DNA of 48,155 bases, taken from Archaeoglobaceae archaeon. GTDB lineage: Archaea; Halobacteriota; Archaeoglobi; Archaeoglobales; Archaeoglobaceae. The stretch lies in contig JALSLC010000024.1 of NCBI GenBank assembly GCA_026988525.1, positions 1-48,155 of the forward strand, in the 5' to 3' direction. The notes under the pieces are model-generated. The model saw only the letters and a list, made by a program, of their open reading frames with translations. It searched no databases and had not been told where the DNA came from. Positions 1,756 to 48,155 of this stretch are shown here, in pieces. Within the stretch, counting starts at the first letter, position 1. Each line of letters opens with the position of its first letter. The position numbers were made by a program, and so were the translations under genes.

Positions 1756-2691
<936 letters not shown>

Positions 2692-2717: not shown

Positions 2718-3035
2718 ATGAAACTCGTAAAGGCTATTATTAGGCCAGAAAAGGTGGATGATGTAATAGATGCATTAAACAGTCAGGGATTTCCAGCTTT
2801 TACGAAGATAGATGTGGTTGGGAGGGGAAAGCAAGGTGGGTTAAAAGTGGGCGAATTTTACTACGACGAACTACCAAAAGTAATGATACTCATAGCTGTT
2901 AACGATGAAGATTTAGAGAAAGTGGTAGATTTAGTGAAAAACTCAGCTTATACTGGAAATTATGGTGATGGAAAGATATTCATCCAACCAATTGAGGAGG
3001 CGTACACAATTAGGACTGGTGAGAGGGGGATTTAG
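2718..3035 (+). CDS. nifI1: Nitrogenase regulatory PII-like protein NifI1
   Basis: NifI1 is a GlnB/PII-family protein. With NifI2 it forms a complex that inhibits the MoFe protein when 2-oxoglutarate is low (nitrogen-sufficient), as shown for methanogen homologues. The product starts MKLVKAIIRPEKVDDV, the typical first PII strand, and contains the family signature 'TGNYGDGKIF' with 'IRTGERG' at the end. ATG 2718 is chosen: the family begins with MK at this point, and AGGTTGAT lies just upstream. Earlier in-frame starts at 2700 and 2712 would add only a few residues. Its stop codon directly abuts the TTG start of nifI2. Position between nifH and nifD is diagnostic of NifI rather than GlnK. Confidence 0.93.
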   Translation: MKLVKAIIRPEKVDDVIDALNSQGFPAFTKIDVVGRGKQGGLKVGEFYYDELPKVMILIAVNDEDLEKVVDLVKNSAYTGNYGDGKIFIQPIEEAYTIRTGERGI

Positions 3036-3410
3036 TTGAAGGAAATATTAGCAATAATAAGACCGAATAAAGTATCAAAAACTGCAAAAGCTTTAGAAGC
3101 TGTTGGTTTTCCTGCTTTAACAGTTGTCAAATGTTTTGGAAGAGGAAAACAAAAAGGATACATTGAGGCTTCTTTGCCTGATAATAAAGAAAAAATAATC
3201 GAAGAAGGTGAAAAACAGGGGCTGTATATGAAATACATACCTAAAAGATTGTTGTCCATAGTTGTAAATGATGAAGATGTAAATCTTGTAGTTGGAATAA
3301 TAATGAAAGTTAATAGGACTGGAAACATTGGTGATGGAAAAATCTTCGTTTTGCCCGTAGAAGATGCTATTAGAGTTAGGACTGGTGAAGTTGGGATAAA
3401 TGCAATATAA
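3036..3410 (+). CDS. nifI2: Nitrogenase regulatory PII-like protein NifI2
   Basis: NifI2 is the second subunit of the NifI1-NifI2 switch that turns nitrogenase off after ammonium addition. It is a PII-family protein of 124 residues, longer than NifI1 because of a larger T-loop region. It shows the end motif 'TGNIGDGKIFVLPVEDA' and 'RVRTGEVG'. The start is TTG 3036, immediately after the nifI1 stop and preceded by GAGAGGGGGA, so translation is tightly coupled. The GC content of this gene is low (hand count 21 of 60 at 3061-3120), in contrast with nifD, which begins 14 bases after its stop. Confidence 0.93.
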   Translation: MKEILAIIRPNKVSKTAKALEAVGFPALTVVKCFGRGKQKGYIEASLPDNKEKIIEEGEKQGLYMKYIPKRLLSIVVNDEDVNLVVGIIMKVNRTGNIGDGKIFVLPVEDAIRVRTGEVGINAI

Positions 3411-3418
3411 GGAGGTGA
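3411..3418 (+). promoter_or_regulatory. Strong ribosome binding site setting the TTG start of nifD
   Basis: GGAGGTGA lies immediately after the nifI2 stop codon and five bases before TTG 3424. It decides the nifD start. The open frame extends upstream to an ATG at 3400, but that would place the ribosome binding site inside the gene and add eight residues unlike archaeal NifD. Confidence 0.75.
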
Positions 3419-3423
3419 AATAT

Positions 3424-4854
3424 TTGCCTTTTATTTTATTAAATTGTAATGAATGCATTCCGGAGAGGATGAAGCACATATACGCCTACGATCCTGAAGA
3501 GGAGATAGTTCCGCTCTGCAATTCCAACACGGTTCCGGGAGATTTGACGGAAAGAGGTTGCGCTTTTGCTGGAGCGAGGGGTGTGGTAGGAGGGCCCATA
3601 AAGGACGTAATTCAGATGGTTCATGGCCCTATAGGTTGTGCGTTCTACACTTGGGGAACGAGGAGAAATTTAAGCGACAACGACCTTCACAGGCGTTACT
3701 GCTTCTCCACGGACATGCAGGAAACAGACGTTGTTTACGGGGGAGAAAAGAAGCTATACAAGGCTTGTGTTGAGGCTAACGAGGAGTTTCCAGATGCAGC
3801 AAAGGGTATAATAATCTACACCACCTGCCCCACCGCTCTGATAGGAGATAACGTCGAAGCTGTAGCTAAGAAGGTGGAGGATGAGATAAAGAAGCCGGTC
3901 GTGGCAATAAACAGTCCGGGATACGCTGGAGTGAGCCAGTCTAAGGGTCATCATGTATTCAACATAACCTTCTACAGATACATAAAAAAGGCGAGAGAGA
4001 AGTTTCCGGAGAAGTGCCTGAAGGAGGAGGAAAAGACACCCTACGATGTCGCGATAATCGGAGAGTATAACATGGACTGGGATGTCGCTGTGTGGGTTCC
4101 GTTGCTTGAAAAGATGGGTTGCAGGGTAGTTGCGATATTCACCGGCAACTCTTCGATGGACGACCTCTTCAAGCTGCCGGATGTGAAGCTGAACATCGTT
4201 CTCTGCCAGAGATCGGCGGAATACATAGCGGAGATGATTCAAGATGGGTTCAACGTTCCTTTCATAAGAGTCAGCATGTTTGGAATTACCGAAACGACTG
4301 AGTCCTTATATAAAATTGCTGAAACTTTGAACATTCCAAAGGAGAGGGTGGACGAGATAGTAGAGGAGGAGATGGAGGCAATAAGGCCACAGCTTGAATT
4401 CTACAGGGAGAAGTTCGAAGGTGTGACTTGCTTATGCTACGTCGGAGCTCCAAGAACCTGGCACTGGGTTATGGCGATGAAGGACTTGGGTATAGATTAT
4501 GTAGTTGCGTGCACGACTTTTGGGCATGAAGAAGATTACGAAAAGATAAACAAAAATCTGAAGAGAGCTGGATTAAAAGGTGTTATCGTTATAGATGCAC
4601 CCAACGAGCTGGAGCTTGAGGAAGCTATAAAGACGTTTCAGCCAGATTTCATGCTTACGGGGCTTAAGGAGAGGTATCTGTTCAGGAAGTATGGAGTTCC
4701 GACGATAAACTCCCACTCATACGAGAGAGGGCCTTACGTGGCATACAGAGGCTTCATCAACTTCGCCAGAGACATCTACAAGGCTGTTTTCCACCCGATA
4801 TGGAATACTCTAAAAGAGGGTGAGAAGAAGTTCGAACCGTTCAAGGGTGGTTGA
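3424..4854 (+). CDS. nifD: Nitrogenase MoFe protein alpha subunit NifD
   Basis: NifD carries FeMo-co and half of the P-cluster in the alpha2beta2 MoFe protein, the site of N2 reduction. The 476-residue product has P-cluster cysteines Cys46 (TERGC), Cys72 (GPIGC) and Cys135 (TTCPT). FeMo-co ligands are Cys261 (NIVLCQRS) and a histidine near residue 431 (NSHSYERG). GVSQSKGHH supplies the equivalent of the catalytic-region His195. Having both cofactor ligands separates it from the nifE paralogue at 38694. The N-terminus is short, as in archaeal and methanogen NifD. From about base 3460 onward codons become G/C-ending (AAG, GAG, TAC, TTC), unlike nifI2, with an AT-rich patch near 4270-4330. nifK follows after one base. 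Confidence 0.97.
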   Translation: MPFILLNCNECIPERMKHIYAYDPEEEIVPLCNSNTVPGDLTERGCAFAGARGVVGGPIKDVIQMVHGPIGCAFYTWGTRRNLSDNDLHRRYCFSTDMQETDVVYGGEKKLYKACVEANEEFPDAAKGIIIYTTCPTALIGDNVEAVAKKVEDEIKKPVVAINSPGYAGVSQSKGHHVFNITFYRYIKKAREKFPEKCLKEEEKTPYDVAIIGEYNMDWDVAVWVPLLEKMGCRVVAIFTGNSSMDDLFKLPDVKLNIVLCQRSAEYIAEMIQDGFNVPFIRVSMFGITETTESLYKIAETLNIPKERVDEIVEEEMEAIRPQLEFYREKFEGVTCLCYVGAPRTWHWVMAMKDLGIDYVVACTTFGHEEDYEKINKNLKRAGLKGVIVIDAPNELELEEAIKTFQPDFMLTGLKERYLFRKYGVPTINSHSYERGPYVAYRGFINFARDIYKAVFHPIWNTLKEGEKKFEPFKGG

Positions 4855-6410
4855 GATGGGAGAAATCTGCTACGTTCAAAAGCAGAGGGCGGTAACCATA
4901 AATCCCAACAAGATCTGCCAGCCAATTGGAGCGATGTGGGCTACGCTGGGGGTTCACAGAGGCATTCCTTTCGTTCAAGGCTCTCAGGGTTGTTGCACAT
5001 ACGTGAGATACACCTTCAACAGACACTTCAGGGAGCCGGTAACCATAGCGGTCGCTTCATTCCACGAACACGCCGCAGTCTATGGAGGAATGAAGAACTT
5101 GGTCGAGGGAGTATTCAATTTGGTAGCGAGATACGATCCCGATTTGATAGCGGTGATAACTACATGTTCCTCGGAAACGATAGGGGACGACATAGAGGCT
5201 TTCATAAGGGCCGCAAAGAAGAAGATAGCCAAGGAGTTGGGAGAGGAGAAGGCTCAACTGCCAGTTATTCCTGTTCACTGCCCCTCATACGTCGGGAGTC
5301 ACGTTACTGGCTATGACAACGCTTCGAAGGCGTTCTTGGGATATTTAGCTAAGAAGGACGAGGACAGTGAGAAGTTGATAAACGTCATTCCCGGTTTCGG
5401 CGTGAATCCGGGGGACATAGAGGAGATAAAGAGAATCCTGAGCATGTTCGGACTGAAGGAGAAGAAGGATTACTCAATTCTTTTCGACATAAGCGAAACC
5501 CTCTACCAGCCTCTGAGAGAGCCCATTAAGGAACTTCCCTACTACCCGAAGGGTGGAACTCTCGTAGAGGAGTTCGTCGATGCCGCTAACGCAAAGGCGA
5601 CCTTCGCACTATGCCAACACGCCGGAGGGAGTGGGGCTTTGTATTTGAAGAACAGGTTCGGAGTGGAAGCTTACTTCGGACTGCCTATAGGCATAAAGAA
5701 CACGGACGACTTCATAATCAATTTGGCGAAGGTTACGGGCTTGGAAATTCCCGACAGGCTTTTGGATGAGAGAGGGAGGCTGATAGACGCGATAGTTGAT
5801 ACCGTCCACTACACCAAAGATGTGAGAGTTGGTATATTCGGGGATCCTGACTTCGTCATAGCCATAACGAGGTTCTGTTGCGAAATGGGGCTTAGGCCCG
5901 TAGTTGTAAACACTCAGACGCCTTCGAAGGTTTACAGACAGGAGATGGAGAAGATAGCCAAGGAGTTCGACGTGAGCTTCGAAGTTCAGTTCTCCGACCT
6001 CTGGGACTTCGAGAAGTCGGTTAAGGAGAAGGGCGTCGATCTGTTAATCGGACATCCGAGGGGTGGAGCCAAGCTTGCTGAGGAGCTCGAAATAGGCTTA
6101 GTTAGAATTGGATTTCCGATATATGATAGGGTGGGATACTTCAGGTGGCCGATAGTAGGTTACATGGGTAGTTTGAGATTGTTCGACGAGATTGTGAACA
6201 CGATACTCGACACGCGCATACCTTGGGATCAGAAGCAGCAGTGAGGTGGTGGTATATGAGGATTGTAAAGGTTAGGTTTTACGACAGACTCGGAAGAATA
6301 GCTGAGAATGGGAATTTCGCATACATAACGTTCCACTTGGGAGAGGACATAAAGCCCAAAGAAGGAGATCTGCTCGTTCAGGTTACGAACTTAAAGGGGA
6401 TACCGATTAT
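3460..6410. other. High-GC segment covering nifDK
   Basis: Hand counts give 29 of 60 G+C at 3601-3660 and 30 of 60 at 5041-5100. The next gene gives 16 of 60 at 6481-6540 and nifI2 gives 21 of 60 at 3061-3120. The shift is not at gene borders. It begins a few codons inside nifD and ends in the middle of the small gene at 6256-6564. Codon choice changes with it. Replacement by homologous recombination with a higher-GC relative is inferred. Confidence 0.7.
4856..6244 (+). CDS. nifK: Nitrogenase MoFe protein beta subunit NifK
   Basis: NifK pairs with NifD and supplies the other P-cluster ligands. The 462-residue product starts at ATG 4856, two bases after the nifD stop, with AAGGGTGG upstream. 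The open frame reaches back to 4820, but that part overlaps nifD and lacks family similarity. P-cluster cysteines are Cys21 (NKICQPIGA), Cys46 (GSQGCC) and Cys104 (TTCSSETIGDD). 'NRHFREP' and 'SYVGSHVTGYDN' are classic NifK segments. It lacks the long N-terminal extension of proteobacterial NifK, as is usual in archaea. Like nifD it has high GC and G/C-ending codons. The downstream small gene starts 11 bases later, so the transcript probably continues. Confidence 0.97.
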   Translation: MGEICYVQKQRAVTINPNKICQPIGAMWATLGVHRGIPFVQGSQGCCTYVRYTFNRHFREPVTIAVASFHEHAAVYGGMKNLVEGVFNLVARYDPDLIAVITTCSSETIGDDIEAFIRAAKKKIAKELGEEKAQLPVIPVHCPSYVGSHVTGYDNASKAFLGYLAKKDEDSEKLINVIPGFGVNPGDIEEIKRILSMFGLKEKKDYSILFDISETLYQPLREPIKELPYYPKGGTLVEEFVDAANAKATFALCQHAGGSGALYLKNRFGVEAYFGLPIGIKNTDDFIINLAKVTGLEIPDRLLDERGRLIDAIVDTVHYTKDVRVGIFGDPDFVIAITRFCCEMGLRPVVVNTQTPSKVYRQEMEKIAKEFDVSFEVQFSDLWDFEKSVKEKGVDLLIGHPRGGAKLAEELEIGLVRIGFPIYDRVGYFRWPIVGYMGSLRLFDEIVNTILDTRIPWDQKQQ

Positions 6411-6564
6411 AGTTGCAAAATTTGTTAAAGGAGAATTTCTTTCAGCATTTAGAAAACCGATGGATTTAAAAAGTTTGGACGATCTAAAAAAATTCAATGT
6501 TCCTGAGGATTTAATTGAAGAAATTAGAAGAACATGTAGAGAAAAGGGAGTGGAGTGGGTATGA
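6256..6564 (+). CDS. Small nif-linked protein of unknown function
   Basis: I do not recognise this 102-residue protein. ATG 6256 follows GAGGTGGT, 11 bases after the nifK stop, so it is probably the sixth gene of the nif operon. The first 60 residues look beta-rich ('RIVKVRFYDRLGR', 'FAYITFHLGED', 'IPIIVAKFVKG'). The last 35 look helical with a charged 'EEIRRTCREKG' end. There is no cysteine motif beyond one Cys near the end, no signal peptide and no membrane segment. It is not NifX, NifZ, NifW or an AnfG/VnfG delta subunit by eye. The first half has the GC content of nifK and the second half is AT-rich, so the composition boundary falls inside this gene. Confidence 0.65.
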   Translation: MRIVKVRFYDRLGRIAENGNFAYITFHLGEDIKPKEGDLLVQVTNLKGIPIIVAKFVKGEFLSAFRKPMDLKSLDDLKKFNVPEDLIEEIRRTCREKGVEWV

Positions 6565-6803
6565 TATATATGGAGCTTGACCCCAAGTACCAGGAACTTA
6601 GAGTTCTATTTGAAAAGGCAATATCCTCGCATAGAAAATCGCATTTTCTCAATGCATACATAAAATTTTTTGAAAAATTATCAGAATTCTGCGAGTGGGC
6701 GAAGAAGTATGGAGTAAGTGAGGAGGAATTATTTAAATATTTTCCTGACGTAGAGTATATGGTTGAAAAAGTAAAAAGCAGATATGATGAATTTATATCT
6801 TAA
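6561..6803 (+). CDS. Small helical nif-linked protein of unknown function
   Basis: The 80-residue product is predicted to be almost all helix and is rich in aromatic and charged residues ('FFEKLSEFCEWAKKYGVSEEEL'). ATG 6561 overlaps the previous stop codon as ATGA, so it is translationally coupled to the 102-residue gene. GTG 6555 is a possible alternative start. It is AT-rich like the background. I know no family for it. The coupling to nifK through the preceding gene suggests a nitrogenase-related role such as an accessory, protection or delivery factor, but this is only inference. It ends seven bases before the convergent radical SAM gene. Confidence 0.6.
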   Translation: MIYMELDPKYQELRVLFEKAISSHRKSHFLNAYIKFFEKLSEFCEWAKKYGVSEEELFKYFPDVEYMVEKVKSRYDEFIS

Positions 6804-37891: not shown

Positions 37892-38719
37892 ATGACTCTT
37901 AGCCCCTTCATGTATCAGCAATACGAATTGCTAAAACACCCGTGTTACAACAATTGCTCACACGCTAAGTACTCCAGAATTCACCTTCCAGTTGCCAAGA
38001 GATGCAATATACAGTGCAACTACTGTAGCAGAAAGTTTAGTAAAAAGGGCAATGTACCGGGGACGTGTGAAAGAATCATTTCTCCAAGAGAAGTAGAATC
38101 TTATCTGGAAAGAATTATAGAGAAAATTCCTGAAGAAACGACTACTCTCGGTATATCTGGTCCGGGTGAACCTTTATTTAACAAAGAGACTTTTGAGACT
38201 TTGAAAATTGTTAGAGAAAAGTATCCCAATTTGTACAGGTGCGTAGCAACAAATGGATTACTCCTTGAAGATGTAATAGACAAGTTGCTGGAGTGCGATG
38301 TAACTCACGTAACTGTGACTTTAAACACAATATATCCAAAGACAGCATCCAAGATATACTCATGGGTAAACTATGGTAAAATATACTATGGGCTGGAAGC
38401 AGGAGAAGTAATTGTTGAAAAGCAGATAAATGGTATAATCGAGGCATCTAAAGCTGGATTACTTATAAAGATAAACACAGTATATATCCCCGGAATAAAT
38501 GATAGAGAAGTGGTTGATGTTGCAAAAGTAGTTTCAAACTATGCGTACATAATGAATATAATGCCTCTAATACCTAATGGTAAATTCTCTAACCTTAGAA
38601 TGCCGACTGTAGAGGAAATTGAAAATGCCAGAAATGCTGCTTCTCGGTATATTAGGCAGTTCTACCACTGCAAGCTGTGTAGGGCTGATGCATATGGTGT
38701 CCCTGGAAAGTTGTTTTGA
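37892..38719 (+). CDS. nifB: Nitrogenase cofactor radical SAM enzyme NifB
   Basis: NifB fuses two [4Fe-4S] clusters and inserts a carbide from SAM to make NifB-co, the core of FeMo-co. The 275-residue product is the short archaeal form without a NifX-like tail. It shows HPCYNNC (Cys18, Cys22), the radical SAM motif CNIQCNYC (Cys38, Cys42, Cys45), 'GISGPGEPLFN' (about 88-98) and the C-terminal CKLCRADAYGVPG that is diagnostic of NifB. ATG 37892 has no ribosome binding site and a TATA-like box nearby. nifE starts inside its last 26 bases, so nifB-nifE-nifN is one operon. Confidence 0.96.
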   Translation: MTLSPFMYQQYELLKHPCYNNCSHAKYSRIHLPVAKRCNIQCNYCSRKFSKKGNVPGTCERIISPREVESYLERIIEKIPEETTTLGISGPGEPLFNKETFETLKIVREKYPNLYRCVATNGLLLEDVIDKLLECDVTHVTVTLNTIYPKTASKIYSWVNYGKIYYGLEAGEVIVEKQINGIIEASKAGLLIKINTVYIPGINDREVVDVAKVVSNYAYIMNIMPLIPNGKFSNLRMPTVEEIENARNAASRYIRQFYHCKLCRADAYGVPGKLF

Positions 38720-39929
38720 AACTAAGGCTGGAGATTTTACCGAGAGGGGCTGCTCTCTTCTTGGTTGTAGAGTTGTTGTTTGTGGACAAGTAAAGAATGT
38801 TGTTCATTTAGTTCATTCACCCATAGGCTGTGCTTATTATTCTTGGGATTACAGAATGGATACAAAGGGATACTGTTTTACTACAGATATGAATGAAATA
38901 GACATAGTTTTTGGGGGAGAAAATAAATTACTAAAAGCTGTACTTTTAGCTATAGAAGAATTTAGTCCGGATGCAGTTTTTATTTACGAAACTTGTAGCA
39001 CCAGTATCATAGGGGATGACATCCAAGCTGTAGCGAAAAAAGCGAGTGATTTAACTGGAATACCAGTCATAGCATTTAACTGTGCTGGGTTTAGAGGTAA
39101 AAGTCAGAATTTCGGACATAGAATTGCAAATCTTGGACTGTTTAATATCATCTTAGATGGGGAAAGGAAAGAAATGGTAAATACGGTTAATTTGATAGGT
39201 GACTTTAATAAAAAAGATTCAGAAATACTTGAAAGACTGTTTGGAGAAATAGGTATAAAAGTTATTTGTACATTTACAGCTAATGCTACTATAGATAAAA
39301 TTAGAGATATGAAAAATGCTGAACTAAACATTGTTATGTGTAGTAAAAGCTCTATATTTTTAGCGGAGTTGATGGAGGAAAAGTATGGAATACCTTACGT
39401 AGAATTAAACTTTTTTGGTTTAGACAACTGCTGTAAATCTTTATATAAAATATCAGAATATTTCAATAATTTAAATGTTGAAGAGGTAATACACGAAAAT
39501 ATGAGTTGGATTAAAATGAAGATTGATAAATATAAAAATATTTTGGAAGATAAAAGAGTATTTATATGTCATGGGGCTCAAAGAGCCATATACTGGATAA
39601 AACCATTCGAAGAGCTTGGAATGAAAGTTGTTGGAATAGCCACTCATTTTGGAGGAGAAATACCAAACTTTGATGGATTGGTAGTAGATAACTTAAGCAG
39701 CGATGAGCTTGAAAAAATACTTGAAAAAGTTAGGCCAGATATCGTCGTATCTGATGATAAAATAAGACATTTAGTGCATAAAATGTCTATACCATTTTTT
39801 AATGGTAGAGGTCAGAATAGAGGATACTCAGGATTCGAAGGTTTCCTCAACTTTGCTAAAGATGTGGGTGAAACTTTAAATGCTAAATTGTGGTACTTGG
39901 CAAGAGATTTCGGAGGTTTTAACGTATGA
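38694..39929 (+). CDS. nifE: Nitrogenase cofactor scaffold subunit NifE
   Basis: NifE with NifN forms the scaffold on which NifB-co becomes FeMo-co. It is a paralogue of NifD. Using ATG 38694 the protein has 411 residues, shorter than proteobacterial NifE (about 475) because the N-terminal extension is missing. P-cluster-like cysteines are Cys20 (TERGC), Cys46 (SPIGC) and Cys101 (ETCSTSIIGDD), and 'NIVMCSKSS' supplies the cofactor cysteine position. The FeMo-co histidine of NifD is replaced: NGRGQNRG stands where NifD has NSHSYERG. This marks it as NifE rather than a second NifD. The start lies within nifB. GTG 38697 or ATG 38688 are alternatives. It is AT-rich, unlike nifD. Confidence 0.92.
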   Translation: MVSLESCFETKAGDFTERGCSLLGCRVVVCGQVKNVVHLVHSPIGCAYYSWDYRMDTKGYCFTTDMNEIDIVFGGENKLLKAVLLAIEEFSPDAVFIYETCSTSIIGDDIQAVAKKASDLTGIPVIAFNCAGFRGKSQNFGHRIANLGLFNIILDGERKEMVNTVNLIGDFNKKDSEILERLFGEIGIKVICTFTANATIDKIRDMKNAELNIVMCSKSSIFLAELMEEKYGIPYVELNFFGLDNCCKSLYKISEYFNNLNVEEVIHENMSWIKMKIDKYKNILEDKRVFICHGAQRAIYWIKPFEELGMKVVGIATHFGGEIPNFDGLVVDNLSSDELEKILEKVRPDIVVSDDKIRHLVHKMSIPFFNGRGQNRGYSGFEGFLNFAKDVGETLNAKLWYLARDFGGFNV

Positions 39930-41194
39930 TAGATGTGTTTTGTAACAATTTACCTTTAAAAGTTAATCCTCCTAAGATGTGCCAACTTACAGGAGTTGTG
40001 CTTGCGACACTTGGTATAAATGGAGCTATACCGCTTATACACGGATCTCAAGGATGTTCAAATTTTGTAAAACACCTAATGTCCAAGCACTTTAAAGAAC
40101 CTATGGATATTGCTACAACTGCTTTAAACGAGAAAGTAATTGCAGCTGGTGGAGAGAAAAGATTGCTTAATGCTATAAAAAATTTAAGAGACAGGTTGGA
40201 TCCAGAATTGATAGTGGTTATGACAACTTGTCTTACTGAAACAATAGGTGATAACTTAGGCGTAGTTAAGGATTGCGTTGTTGTTAGAACTCCGTCTTAC
40301 TCTGGAACACATGTTGAAGGTTATGACAGTGCAATAAAGGAAATTATAAAGTTTTTAGCTGATGATTGTATTGAAAGAAAGAACAGTATTAATGTTATAA
40401 GTGGTTTTGTAAATCCCGCTGATGTTAGAGAGTTGAAAAAAATTTTAACTTTAATGGGTGTTGAGCACACCATACTGACAGATTTAACATCCTTAGATAT
40501 GCCCATATTAAAAAAGAGAAGGAGTGATACTACAGTTGAAAAAATAAGAGAGTCTGTAAATGCTATTGCCACTTTTAGTTTTGGAAAGGAAGGAAAAAGT
40601 GGAGGAGAGTATCTTGAAAAATTTGGAGTAAATAATTTAAATCTTAGATTTCCTATTGGTATAATCAATACAGATAGATTTTTACTTAAGGTTTCTGAAA
40701 TTACGGGAGCTGAAATATCGGATAAAGTAGTTGAAGAAAGGAATTATGCTCTTGATGGAATGGTTGATGTTAGTCACGTTTTAAGGGGGAAAAAAGTAGC
40801 TATATTCGGCGATGTGGATAAAGTTATTGCCCTCTCAGAATTTGCATTTGAAGTTGGTATGAAAGTAAAGGCAGTTCTAATTCCAGTAAAGTGCGAACGC
40901 TTTGTAAACGAAATGGAATACATAGCTGTTAAAAATAATTCTAAGATTGCTGTTTTTGAGAACTCCGATCTATACACATTACATAAGTTTTTGAGAGATA
41001 ATCCTGTCGATGTTTTAATAGGGGATTATAGAGGAAGATATATAGCTGAAAAAGAGAAAATACCTCTCTTAAGAGTGGGTTTTCCTGTGTGCGATAGATT
41101 CGGATATCATAGAAAGCCTATTTTTTGCTACGCTGGAGCTTTGAGGATGGCCGAAGAAATGGCAAACTTAATTGTTGGGAAATACTATGGGTAA
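39926..41194 (+). CDS. nifN: Nitrogenase cofactor scaffold subunit NifN
   Basis: NifN is the NifK-like partner of NifE. The 422-residue product begins near 'NPPKMCQLTGVVLATLGING' (Cys19), then 'GSQGCSNF' (Cys44) and 'TTCLTETIGD' (Cys102). It thus keeps cysteines at all three NifK P-cluster positions, more than bacterial NifN usually does. 'HFKEPMDIATTALNE', 'SYSGTHVEGYDSA' and 'GFPVCDRFGYHRKPIFCYAGA' in part match the family. ATG 39926 overlaps the nifE stop as ATGA. Position after nifB-nifE decides NifN over a second NifK. A 95-base gap follows before nifV. Confidence 0.92.
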   Translation: MIDVFCNNLPLKVNPPKMCQLTGVVLATLGINGAIPLIHGSQGCSNFVKHLMSKHFKEPMDIATTALNEKVIAAGGEKRLLNAIKNLRDRLDPELIVVMTTCLTETIGDNLGVVKDCVVVRTPSYSGTHVEGYDSAIKEIIKFLADDCIERKNSINVISGFVNPADVRELKKILTLMGVEHTILTDLTSLDMPILKKRRSDTTVEKIRESVNAIATFSFGKEGKSGGEYLEKFGVNNLNLRFPIGIINTDRFLLKVSEITGAEISDKVVEERNYALDGMVDVSHVLRGKKVAIFGDVDKVIALSEFAFEVGMKVKAVLIPVKCERFVNEMEYIAVKNNSKIAVFENSDLYTLHKFLRDNPVDVLIGDYRGRYIAEKEKIPLLRVGFPVCDRFGYHRKPIFCYAGALRMAEEMANLIVGKYYG

Positions 41195-41257
41195 TTTTTA
41201 AAATATATTAAGAAAGATTATGAATGTTTAATCAGAAAATTCTTTTTTTCGTAAATA

Positions 41258-41267
41258 AATTTTTATG
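41258..41267 (+). promoter_or_regulatory. Probable TATA box of nifV-modABC
   Basis: AATTTTTATG lies 23-32 bases before the nifV ATG, in a 95-base gap after nifN. The distance predicts a leader of only a few bases. A separate promoter for nifV-modABC is likely. No operator-like palindrome was seen. Confidence 0.4.
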
Positions 41268-41289
41268 CTGAATTTATATCTTCAAGTGT

Positions 41290-42390
41290 ATGGTATTCTA
41301 CGACACAACACTGAGGGATGGAGAACAAACACCAGGAGTTAGCTTTACACCAGAGCAAAAACTTGAAATCGCAATAGCCTTAGATGAAATAGGGATACAA
41401 GAAATAGAAGCAGGATTTCCTGTTGTCTCTAACAGAGAATTCAAGGCCGTTAAAGAGATAGCCAACCAATCTTTAAATGCAAGAGTGTTCGCCTTTTGTC
41501 GAGCTAAAATAGGGGATGTAAATACTGCTTTAAAATGCGATGTTGATGGAATAGTTGTAGCTACTTCCTTAAGTGAAAGGCATTTAAAGTACAAACTTAA
41601 GAGGTCATTTGAAGCCGTTTTTAGAGAGGCTATAGATGTTCTTGAATATGCAAAAGATCACGTTTTTGTTTCTTTTACAACAGAAGATGCCACGAGAATA
41701 CCTTTGAGTAAGCTTGTGGATATATATAGTGCTGCACTCGAATTTGCTGACAGAGTGCACATCTCAGATACCGTTGGTATTGCTACAACTGAGTTGATTG
41801 AATGTTACGTTCCAGCCATAAAGTCCTTAGGAGGAGAGGTGTTGTGTCACCTTCATAACGACTTTGGAATGGCTACTGCTAATAGTATTAGAGCTGTAAT
41901 ATGTGGTGCAGATAGGGTAGCTGTTACAGTTAATGGAATTGGTGAGAGGTGTGGAAACGCCTGCTTGCAGGAAGTAGCTACAGCACTCGAAATACTATAC
42001 GGCGTAGATACTGGATTAAAGTTGGATAAAATGTGTGAAATAGCTAAACTTGTGGAAAAGTACTCAGGAATTCCTGTTCATCCAATTTCACCAGTTATAG
42101 GTGAAAATGCTTTTACCCATGAAAGTGGTATGCATGTAGCAGGAATCTTAGAAAATCCAGAAACCTACGAACCATATCCTCCTGAAATGGTCGGTCAGAA
42201 AAGAAAGATTGTACTTGGAAAGCACTCTGGGAGAAAGAGCATAGTTTACAAGATGAGTGAAATTAATACTGAAAACAATGGAAACTACAGTATAGATGAA
42301 ATTTTGAAGATAGTAAAAGAAATTCATGAAAGAGGTTATTCTGTTACAGATAAAGTTTTTAGAACTATTTGTGAAAATATTGGAAATTGA
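41290..42390 (+). CDS. nifV: Homocitrate synthase NifV
   Basis: NifV condenses acetyl-CoA and 2-oxoglutarate to homocitrate, the organic ligand of FeMo-co. The 366-residue LeuA/NifV-family protein has 'YDTTLRDGEQTPGVSF' (about residues 4-19), 'HLHNDFGMATAN' (about 180-191), 'GIGERCGNACLQEVATAL' (about 216-233) and 'HESGMHVAGIL' with 'LGKHSGRKS' near the C-terminus. By sequence alone it could be an AksA-like enzyme or another re/si homologue. The location between nifBEN and modABC supports NifV. modA follows nine bases after the stop. Confidence 0.88.
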   Translation: MVFYDTTLRDGEQTPGVSFTPEQKLEIAIALDEIGIQEIEAGFPVVSNREFKAVKEIANQSLNARVFAFCRAKIGDVNTALKCDVDGIVVATSLSERHLKYKLKRSFEAVFREAIDVLEYAKDHVFVSFTTEDATRIPLSKLVDIYSAALEFADRVHISDTVGIATTELIECYVPAIKSLGGEVLCHLHNDFGMATANSIRAVICGADRVAVTVNGIGERCGNACLQEVATALEILYGVDTGLKLDKMCEIAKLVEKYSGIPVHPISPVIGENAFTHESGMHVAGILENPETYEPYPPEMVGQKRKIVLGKHSGRKSIVYKMSEINTENNGNYSIDEILKIVKEIHERGYSVTDKVFRTICENIGN

Positions 42391-42399
42391 GGTGGTTTA

Positions 42400-43167
42400 A
42401 TGGAGAAAAAGCTGGTATTACTCTTAGTTGTATTGTTGAGTTGTGTTTTATTGGGTTGTACTCAAAAACAACAGGAAAAAACACTCCATGTTTATTCTGG
42501 AGCTGGTATGAGGAAACCAATGGATAAGATTGCCAAAATGTTTGAAAAGGAATACGGTGTTAAAGTTCTATGCGATTACGCTGGTAGTGGTTATCTACTT
42601 GCAAAAATTGAATCAACTAAGAGTGGTGATATATTTGTTCCAGGAGATTATATTTACGTTAAAAAACTAATTGAAAAGGGTGATATTATTAAGTATAAGA
42701 ATCTATCCAAGCATATTCCAGTTATCGTTGTTCCAAAAGGAAATCCTAAACATATAACATGCTTAGAGGATTTAGCAAAGCCGGGAGTTAAGTTAGCCAT
42801 AGGAGATAGAAACATAGCAATTGGAATAGCAATGAATAAGATCCTCGACAAAGCAAACAAGTATAATCCCGGAATAAAAGAGAAGATATTGAAGAATGTT
42901 GTTGTAAAGGGTGCTACTGTAAAGCAAGTTCTATTTTATGTATTGGAAGGGCAAGTAGATGCAGGGGTTATATGGAAAGCTGATGCTTTAGAAAATAAGA
43001 ACAAGCTTGAGATAATACCAATAAATGAAAGTTACAACGTAATAAAAACAATACCTATAGCTATTCTAAAGTTCACAAAAGATAAGAAATTAGCAAACGA
43101 GTTCTATAACTTTACATTGACCAAGGGTAGGCGCGTATTTGAAGAATATGGATTTACGTTAATATGA
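42400..43167 (+). CDS. modA: Molybdate-binding lipoprotein ModA
   Basis: ModA captures molybdate (or tungstate) outside the membrane. The 255-residue protein has a lipoprotein signal with lipobox LLGC (Cys20). The binding-fold segments are 'LHVYSGAGMRKPMDKIAKMF' in part (about 29-48), 'DYAGSGYLLAKIE', 'GDIFVPGDY' and 'VLEGQVDAGVIWKADAL' (about 183-199). The length is that of bacterial ModA and is shorter than the about 340-residue WtpA/ModA proteins known from Archaeoglobus and Pyrococcus. ATG 42400 follows GAGGTGGT. Its stop overlaps modB. Confidence 0.9.
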   Translation: MEKKLVLLLVVLLSCVLLGCTQKQQEKTLHVYSGAGMRKPMDKIAKMFEKEYGVKVLCDYAGSGYLLAKIESTKSGDIFVPGDYIYVKKLIEKGDIIKYKNLSKHIPVIVVPKGNPKHITCLEDLAKPGVKLAIGDRNIAIGIAMNKILDKANKYNPGIKEKILKNVVVKGATVKQVLFYVLEGQVDAGVIWKADALENKNKLEIIPINESYNVIKTIPIAILKFTKDKKLANEFYNFTLTKGRRVFEEYGFTLI

Positions 43168-43937
43168 GGCGAGTTTTTCTTGTATTTTTTATTTTAATGA
43201 TACTGTCAGTAATACTGTCCATAGCTAGTAATATAACACCCTCAGTAATCACCAAAGCTCTAAATTCCAAAGAAGTGCAGTTTGCAGTATTTTTAAGTCT
43301 AAAATCAGCTTTAGTTGCTACAATATTAGCACTAATAGTTGGTGTTCCCACAGCATACACTCTCGCTCGATCGAATTTTGCATTAAAAGAGCTGGTAGAT
43401 AGTCTTGTAGATTTACCAGTTGTATTACCTCCACTAATCAGCGGTTTCGGTCTTCTACTGTTTTTTGGAGACACACCTATAGGGAAGTTTATTTCAAGTT
43501 ATATCAACGTAATTTTTACGCCATTAGGCATAATAGTGGCTCAATTTTTTATAGCCACTCCGTTTGTAATTAGAACTGTTAGAGCTGTTTTTGAAAACAT
43601 AGACCCGAAGTATGAACTTGTTGCTATGAATCTCGGAGCATCAAAAACTGAATGCTTTTTCAACATAGTTTTACCTATGGCAAGAAAAGGTATTTTAGCG
43701 GGGGCCATTCTTGCTTGGGCGAGATGTATGGGTGAATTTGGTGCAACTCTTATGCTTGCAGGGGCTACAAGAATGAGAACAGAAACACTACCGATAGCAG
43801 TCTATCTAAATATTTCTATTGGAAATATCAATTTAGCTCTTGCAATATCTTTGATTATGTTAACAATTGCTGTACTAACAATAGCTTCAATAAAAATTAT
43901 AGTTGGTGGGTTTAATGTTGGAAATATTAGGGGTTAA
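43164..43937 (+). CDS. modB: Molybdate ABC transporter permease ModB
   Basis: The 257-residue inner-membrane permease has about six membrane segments. 'TAYTLARSNFALKELVDSLVDLPVVLPPLISGFGLLL' (read in parts, about residues 52-90) and the coupling motif 'EFGATLMLAGATRMRTETLPIAVYL' in part (about 191-215) are the ModB/CysT-type signatures. ATG 43164 overlaps the modA stop (ATGA). modC starts inside its last 23 bases. The three mod genes are thus a tight operon downstream of nifV. Confidence 0.94.
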   Translation: MRRVFLVFFILMILSVILSIASNITPSVITKALNSKEVQFAVFLSLKSALVATILALIVGVPTAYTLARSNFALKELVDSLVDLPVVLPPLISGFGLLLFFGDTPIGKFISSYINVIFTPLGIIVAQFFIATPFVIRTVRAVFENIDPKYELVAMNLGASKTECFFNIVLPMARKGILAGAILAWARCMGEFGATLMLAGATRMRTETLPIAVYLNISIGNINLALAISLIMLTIAVLTIASIKIIVGGFNVGNIRG

Positions 43938-44949
43938 GAAAAAGTTAGAGTACTTTGATTTACAAGTAGATAACCTGAAAATAAATAGTGGTGAGTATTT
44001 TATTTTTCTTGGATTGAGTGGCGCCGGAAAAACAACACTATTAGAAATAATAGCAGGTTTTAGAAAACCAGATTTTGGTAAAATAATCTTAAACGGAGAA
44101 GATATAACTAATAAACCTGTGAATGAAAGAAAAATCTCAATTTGTAATGAATATCTCTTTCCACATATGAACGTTTACGACAATATAGCTTATGGCATAA
44201 GAAAAAAGAAAGATAAAAAAAGAAAAGTTATTGAGTTGGCAGAAATGCTTGGAATAGAAAATTTACTTGACAGAAAAATAGACACTCTTAGCGCAGGAGA
44301 GAGACAGAGGGTTGCTATAGCAAGAGCTTTAGCAGTAGAACCTGAAGTAATTTTGCTTGATGAACCCCTTAACTCTTTGGATAGGCTAACTCACGAATCG
44401 CTAATGGTAGAACTTAGGAAGTTGAATGAGAATACTAATACTACATTTATACATGTAACTCACGATTTTATAGAAGCTATAGCTTTGGCAGATAGAATAG
44501 CTATAATAAGAAGAGGAAAAATAGAACAATGTGAAGAAGTTGAAAAAATATTAAAAAATCCAAAAAATGAATTTGTTGCAAAATTTGTCGGTGTAAAAAA
44601 TCTATTAGATGGAGTTATTTATAGAAAGAACAGTAGTTATGTGCTTGATTGTGGATTAAAATTGAGAGTTAATACAGAATATGAAGGCAAAGTGAGAGTT
44701 GGTATAAGGCCTGAAAATATAATGATTATATCAAGCGAGAATTGTAGATTCGTGAAAGATAATATATTTGAGGCTGAAGTAGTTGATATAATTCCCCTTA
44801 CACTTTCTACTACACAGGTTGTTTTGAATGTTGACGGAGTAGAATTAGTGGCTGAAACTGTAAAATCAAAAATTTTGAGAATGGGGTTGAAAAAAGGTAG
44901 TAAAGTAAAAATTAGTATAACTGACGTAAGCATAATAAAAGCTTCATAA
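43915..44949 (+). CDS. modC: Molybdate ABC transporter ATPase ModC
   Basis: ModC powers molybdate import. The 344-residue protein has Walker A 'GLSGAGKTT' (about residues 33-41), signature 'LSAGERQRVAIARAL' (about 124-138), Walker B 'VILLDEPLNSLD' and the switch histidine in 'HVTHDF'. A C-terminal TOBE-like domain (from about 225) may sense molybdate. The Q-loop is odd: the segment reads ICNEYLFPHMNV where Q-N-Y-A-L-F-P-H is usual, so the glutamine is Asn and one residue is missing. ATG 43915 follows GGTGGG by four bases and overlaps modB. Confidence 0.92.
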   Translation: MLEILGVKKKLEYFDLQVDNLKINSGEYFIFLGLSGAGKTTLLEIIAGFRKPDFGKIILNGEDITNKPVNERKISICNEYLFPHMNVYDNIAYGIRKKKDKKRKVIELAEMLGIENLLDRKIDTLSAGERQRVAIARALAVEPEVILLDEPLNSLDRLTHESLMVELRKLNENTNTTFIHVTHDFIEAIALADRIAIIRRGKIEQCEEVEKILKNPKNEFVAKFVGVKNLLDGVIYRKNSSYVLDCGLKLRVNTEYEGKVRVGIRPENIMIISSENCRFVKDNIFEAEVVDIIPLTLSTTQVVLNVDGVELVAETVKSKILRMGLKKGSKVKISITDVSIIKAS

Positions 44950-47520: not shown

Positions 47521-48155
47521 GGTCTGATTTTAACACTCTTTGTAATGGTGGCTGTCGTCTTCGTTATCAGGCTTTCAATCCCTTAAAGGTCTGATTTTAA
47601 CAAAATGGGAGTTATTGAAGATATTATAAAAAAGAAATACTTTCAATCCCATCAAGGTCTGATTTTAACACTACAACCGCCCGGTAAGACCACCGAAATA
47701 CCTCCCCACTTTCAATCCCATCAAGGTCTGATTTTAACGTTTAATACAGGTGGAACTACAGAATCTTCAACCATACTTTCAATCCCATCAAGGTCTGATT
47801 TTAACGAAGAAATAGACAACCTGTATCAAAGGTCTGTCAAGCTTTCAATCCCATCAAGGTCTGATTTTAACAGATTAGGACGGGGTTCCCATCCCCATCC
47901 TCATCCACTTTCAATCCCATCAAGGTCTGATTTTAACTCGCCAGCCTGAAGGCAGATGCACGCAGGAAAGACTTCTTTCAATCCCATCAAGGTCTGATTT
48001 TAACCTGATAGAGTCAAAATAGTGAGTGCCTGCTTCAAGTGTATGTACTTTCAATCCCATCAAGGTCTGATTTTAACTCGTTAGTATGGAATTTTTCCCA
48101 AAACATTATCAAACAAGTCTTTCAATCCCATCAAGGTCTGATTTTAACTCGTTAG
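47521..48155 (-). CRISPR. CRISPR array, nine full 30-bp repeats plus one degenerate, open at the window edge
   Basis: On the plus strand the repeat begins CTTTCAATCCCATC and ends AAGGTCTGATTTTAAC. Full repeats start at 47572, 47640, 47709, 47776, 47842, 47908, 47975, 48048 and 48119. A half repeat (GGTCTGATTTTAAC, 47521-47534) lies to the left. The first full copy differs from consensus at two bases in the middle and the rest are identical. Spacers run 36-43 bases. The complement ends ATTGAAAG, the usual crRNA 5' handle of type I archaeal systems, so transcription is on the minus strand, and the decayed end is leader-distal. No cas genes or leader are in the window. The short open frame at 47605-47949 is an artefact of the array. 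Confidence 0.98.

Follow-up and report, generated by a model that had tools for sequence, protein, structure and literature searches.

Whole nif clusters move horizontally, for example on the symbiosis islands of rhizobia, and the homologous replacement of prokaryotic orthologues, which produces mosaic genes, is also a known process. In methanogens the nitrogenase genes can form a nifHI1I2DK operon, and the Methanothermococcus versions (L008, L009) have the same gene order as the archaeal operon described here, with NifD 72% and NifK 77% identical to its products. However, these copies are AT-rich (GC3 0.31-0.34) and distant from our genome, and they are therefore not the donor of the segment discussed below. 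A 2015 genome paper found no nifHDK in Geoglobus ahangari, as earlier for other Archaeoglobales (PMC4600277), so that nif in the Archaeoglobaceae itself has been little described. In the literature searched on Archaeoglobaceae nif and on nifDK recombination, we found no account of the present case. Here, we report an operon whose nifDK segment was very probably replaced in place by homologous recombination from a higher-GC, G036-like Archaeoglobaceae donor of another genus.

The window analyzed (48,155 nucleotides) is one whole contig of the host genome G000, an Archaeoglobaceae archaeon (1.43 Mb in 39 contigs, estimated completeness 99.8%, contamination 0.07%) that is probably a metagenome bin. 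The region at 1.8-6.8 kb carries nifH-nifI1-nifI2-nifD-nifK followed by two small conserved genes (Table 1), an order common to G000, G042, G044, G043 and G038. nifD starts with TTG, with an AGGAGG ribosome-binding motif directly 5' at about 3411, and both nifD and nifK are single-copy in G000 with intact reading frames. NifK scored 388.5 bits against the nifK equivalog model, which is under the cut-off of 427.3 yet is still the best match for NifK. The second nif block contains nifE and nifN together with a gene for a radical SAM protein, probably nifB, a homocitrate synthase-like gene, probably nifV, and transport genes that are probably modABC. No Pfam or NCBIfam model matched either of the small genes at 6256-6564 and 6570-6803, but both are conserved across nif-bearing Archaeoglobaceae, the former also in Methanothermococcus (about 49%), and they are possible unnamed nif accessory genes. 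At the contig end, an ORF at 47605-47949 is built from SIPSRSDFN repeats and resembles a translated CRISPR array.

Table 1. Features of the nif operon and of the second nif block, in window positions.
Feature	Position	Strand	Evidence and composition
nifH, nitrogenase iron protein	1837..2691	+	TIGR01287 equivalog 453.5 bits (cut-off 394.4)
nifI1, PII-type regulator	2718..3035	+	PII matches under cut-off; GC3 0.37
nifI2, PII-type regulator	3036..3410	+	AT-rich, GC3 0.20
nifD codons 1-11, native side of upstream junction	3424..3456	+	GC 21%, GC3 0.18
nifD, probably replaced part, nitrogenase component I alpha	3457..4854	+	TIGR01862 519.2 bits (cut-off 486.1); GC3 0.57
nifK, probably replaced, nitrogenase component I beta	4856..6244	+	GC3 0.62
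102-residue gene, conserved	6256..6564	+	5' half GC-rich and donor-like (to about 6408), 3' half native
Small conserved gene 3' of the 102-residue gene	6570..6803	+	Native, outside the segment; GC3 0.33
Second nif block	37892..44949	+	GC3 0.21-0.36, native composition; Pfam and NCBIfam matches

A two-state HMM on GC, run over the whole window, returned a single high-GC segment at 3460-6405 (48.5% G+C vs 34.6% for the window), essentially the edges of the patch at 3460-6410 that the original prediction had drawn from the letters alone. In 300-bp windows, G+C was 45-51% over 3451-6300 against about 30-38% over most of the neighboring DNA, with nifH at 40-46%. The genome background was a 348-kb sample of G000 (stretches of 20 further contigs together with the ribosomal cluster, 327 genes), in which 2,800-bp windows averaged 0.347 G+C (sd 0.020) and reached 0.426 at most, vs 0.487 in the patch. 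The GC3 of the sampled genes averaged 0.26 (sd 0.05, max 0.48, n=327), compared with 0.56 for nifD and the highest value among the genes examined for nifK. Two adjoining genes on contig C14 of G000 (L130:698-2956) rank next (0.48 and 0.45); one of them looks Orc1/Cdc6-like by eye, and the pair may mark a further foreign segment or an island related to a replicon.

Codon usage follows the same division. The anticipated switch to G/C-ending codons was found for all five codons named, with AAG making up 91% of Lys codons in the patch vs 32% in the other nif genes, TTC 85% vs 27%, TAC 77% vs 48%, GAC 54% vs 10% and GAG 65% vs 27%. Both edges fall inside genes, as had been proposed: GC3 steps up between codons 11 and 12 of nifD (Table 1) and drops from 0.53 in the first half of the 102-residue gene to 0.19 in the second. 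nifH, described earlier as intermediate, is mildly raised (GC3 0.33), and nifE and nifN have the native, AT-rich composition expected of them (0.24). The patch GC3 of 0.56-0.62 fits G036 (sampled-gene mean 0.567), not G000 (0.26) or G042 (0.36).

A search of 57 genomes from the order gave 9 with a NifD-like match, and in 8 of these NifD was at least 80% identical, all within the host genus g1 and genus g12. A tree of 19 ribosomal-cluster proteins placed G000 with G042 (support 100) in g1 and G036 in g12. G042 has 38.7% GC (mean GC3 0.36) and G036 has 46.8% (mean GC3 0.57). Alignable genomic DNA of G000 and G036 has a background identity of about 70% (median), and in the segment the two are about 93-95% identical, although the G036 contigs are without its middle (about nifD codon 245 to nifK codon 263). 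A 1.3-kb stretch of G000 contig C3 with a radical SAM-like gene (L119:7325-8667), 83% identical to G036 vs the median of 70%, is a candidate for a further cross-genus exchange.

Synonymous similarity was measured as the fraction of conserved residues encoded by an identical codon in both genomes; paralogue entries of G035, G037 and G038 (nifI1, nifK, nifE, nifN) were left out of this set and of the topology set. Between G000 and G036, identical codons make up 0.42 in nifH, 0.38 in nifI1 and 0.23 in nifI2, and then jump, at the predicted edges, to 0.84 in nifD (codons 12-244) and 0.87 in nifK (codons 264-462), as allelic replacement from a higher-GC relative had led one to expect. They fall to 0.59 and 0.29 in the 5' and 3' halves of the 102-residue gene, and stand at 0.43 in the small gene at 6570..6803, 0.36 in nifE, 0.37 in nifN and 0.36 in ribosomal proteins. 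The control pairs G000-G038, G000-G044, G036-G038, G036-G044 and G038-G044 share only 0.48-0.63 of nifDK codons; synonymous change in nifDK is therefore not slow. Likewise, dS between G000 and G036 is 0.34 in nifD (228 codons) and saturated in nifH and nifI. The genes nifH, nifI1, nifI2, nifBENV and modABC are left native.

Likelihood scans against G036 placed the upstream breakpoint at 3457 (3454-3465), within codon 12 of nifD, with identity rising from 0.732 on the left to 0.932 on the right (LLR 68.5 vs a maximum of 9.1 in 200 permutations); positions 3457-3530 are identical between the two genomes. The downstream breakpoint was at 6250 (support interval 6236-6408), where identity falls from 0.95 to 0.70 (LLR 68.0 vs a permutation maximum of 6.6). 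Control pairs (G036-G038, G036-G044, G000-G038, G038-G044) showed no comparable break, with LLR of 1-8 vs 36-68. The downstream composition edge is inside the 102-residue gene, at 6405 by HMM with a second step at 6408, and the stretch 6256-6408 is GC-rich but less G036-like. The true downstream crossover may thus lie at about 6405, the donor having differed from G036 over this stretch, or the stretch may derive from another source. A repeat scan of 3300-6650 found neither inverted repeats nor direct repeats linking both edges, and none of the ORFs read next to the patch was recognized as transposase-like. A mobile-element insertion was rejected on these grounds, in keeping with the earlier preference for replacement.

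Separate phylogenies had been proposed as a further check, and these gave a mixed outcome. For the patch, the listed trees parting G036 from G000 and G042 were rejected (AU p <=2.5e-4), as was the grouping of G036 with G038; for the upstream flank, the listed trees with (G000,G036) or (G042,G036) pairs were rejected. However, the tree (((G000,G042),G036),G038) fits both patch and upstream flank and was rejected by neither, so recombination does not follow from branching order by itself. The decisive signal is divergence depth and composition, not topology.

The sister species G042 also holds a replaced nifDK, related to that of G000 and with a different downstream edge. Its nifDK has a GC3 of 0.56-0.61, vs 0.30-0.47 in its flanking nif genes, and its breakpoints against G036 are at 3453 and 6238. 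G000 and G042 share 0.74-0.88 of identical codons in nifDK (0.84-0.88 in nifK) against 0.42-0.53 elsewhere, which indicates at least one replacement after the split of these two species, and the different downstream edges point to two events. The replacement has therefore probably occurred more than once. The nifH of G042 (L141) has a GC3 of 0.47, at the top of the range for that genome, and G042 may have exchanged part of nifH as well. The G036 contigs (C22 start, L139; C29 end, L138) stop inside nifD and nifK, and their ends overlap the G042 contig (L141) exactly by 126 and 125 bases, both genomes being from sample 356-284. Overlaps of this length would be expected of an assembly graph built on words of about 127, and they suggest that tracts in this region are identical in the G036 and G042 populations, because of either a very recent exchange or an assembly collapse; G000 is not directly involved in them. 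A wider reading, which we offer tentatively as one that could well fail, is that nifDK is an exchangeable module that has repeatedly crossed, and is still crossing, Archaeoglobaceae genera (G000, G042, G036) while NifH, NifI and NifEN stay with the host, that is, a gene-specific sweep.

Replacement by recombination would have required donor DNA to enter the host cell by some route and to pair with the resident operon at high-identity stretches. Two crossovers would then have swapped the catalytic genes; the native promoter side would remain, as would nifH, the switch encoded by nifI1/nifI2 and the second-block scaffold genes. The exchanged tract would run from 3457 to about 6250-6408, taking in nifD from codon 12, the whole of nifK and probably the 5' half of the 102-residue gene. 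Since the frames are intact, the predicted hybrid nitrogenase, a native NifH reductase with a foreign NifDK catalytic component, would likely be functional. Among the changes private to G000, the ratio of S-to-W to W-to-S is 22:9 in the patch vs 49:10 in the native flank (binomial p 0.006); the patch-private changes are less AT-biased, and most of them probably predate arrival, which points to a transfer that was recent relative to the split from G036.

We take the direction to have been from a GC-rich donor to an AT-rich recipient. Across the operon, G036 and its congener G038 show no break (LLR 3.6 and 1.3), and their codon identity of 0.50-0.64 is at the ribosomal baseline of 0.56, as expected if the G036 copy is native. 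Together with the patch composition, this makes a G036-like lineage the likely native owner, and it argues against the reverse direction or a common third source, in which an unsampled GC-rich member of the host genus gave nifDK to G000, G042 and G036. Such a source has in its favor that G043 and G044 of the host genus are GC-rich (nifDK GC3 0.51-0.64) and that the nucleotide nifD tree sets G044 beside the G000/G036/G042 clade (support 83); we consider it unlikely, though deserving of weight. The exact donor is absent from all sampled genomes. Within the patch, G000, G042 and G036 are nearly equidistant, which leaves the roles of donor and recipient tentative.

An assembly chimera is a less probable account still. 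A metagenome assembler could have spliced nifDK from a GC-rich Archaeoglobaceae in the same community into an AT-rich contig at conserved stretches, with the native nifDK missing from the bin. This would agree with an upstream junction in a well-conserved stretch (3457-3530), with patch-private changes that are hardly AT-biased, and with the G036/G042 contig overlaps, in which assembly graphs meet in nifDK. However, two joins would be required, with the downstream one in a gene of low conservation; this nearly complete and clean genome retains no native nifDK; and the patch is identical to no known genome. In addition, G042 has the same type of replacement, with outer parts several percent off G036.

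Vertical inheritance, in which an old GC-rich nifDK was kept while the remaining genome became AT-rich, is very improbable, even though the genus ancestor may have been GC-rich as G043 and G044 are. It predicts equal similarity of G000 and G042 throughout, and it was rejected because their synonymous divergence is unequal inside and outside the segment (identical codons 0.74-0.88 vs 0.42-0.53); native AT-rich genes also lie on either side in the operon. Translational selection or another local pressure toward GC-ending codons in the most expressed nif genes, which the abundance of nitrogenase when expressed and the mildly raised nifH could favor, has almost no probability left, since it fails the ribosomal-protein codon-bias check proposed at the outset (GC3 0.22-0.33; EF-1 alpha 0.36), would not place edges inside genes, and is refuted by codon sharing specific to G036, as it cannot give 84-87% shared codons with one genome when equally GC-rich relatives share 48-58%.

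Replacement from a G036-like donor has consequences for how nitrogenase history is read, which is often inferred from nifH or from concatenated HDK. In this operon the catalytic genes have a recent history unlike that of nifH and nifI, so nifH or HDK trees can mislead. An enzyme core appears to have been exchanged between archaea whose alignable DNA is only about 70% identical, and native regulators and scaffold proteins would be left to work alongside it. As in rhizobia, nitrogen-fixation genes would have passed between lineages; unlike the whole-cluster transfers seen there, the part that moved here is limited to nifDK and perhaps half of the gene that follows, with nifH, nifI1/nifI2 and nifEN native. 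The locus is closer to mosaic genes, with which it shares exchange in place, sharp edges inside coding sequence, a single copy, donor composition and divergence, and edges at which the repeat scan saw no mobile element. It differs from them in that a genus boundary was crossed at that background identity and that what was exchanged is the pair of catalytic nitrogenase genes. The process itself is already known, and this nifDK-only, cross-genus instance is a good new example of it.
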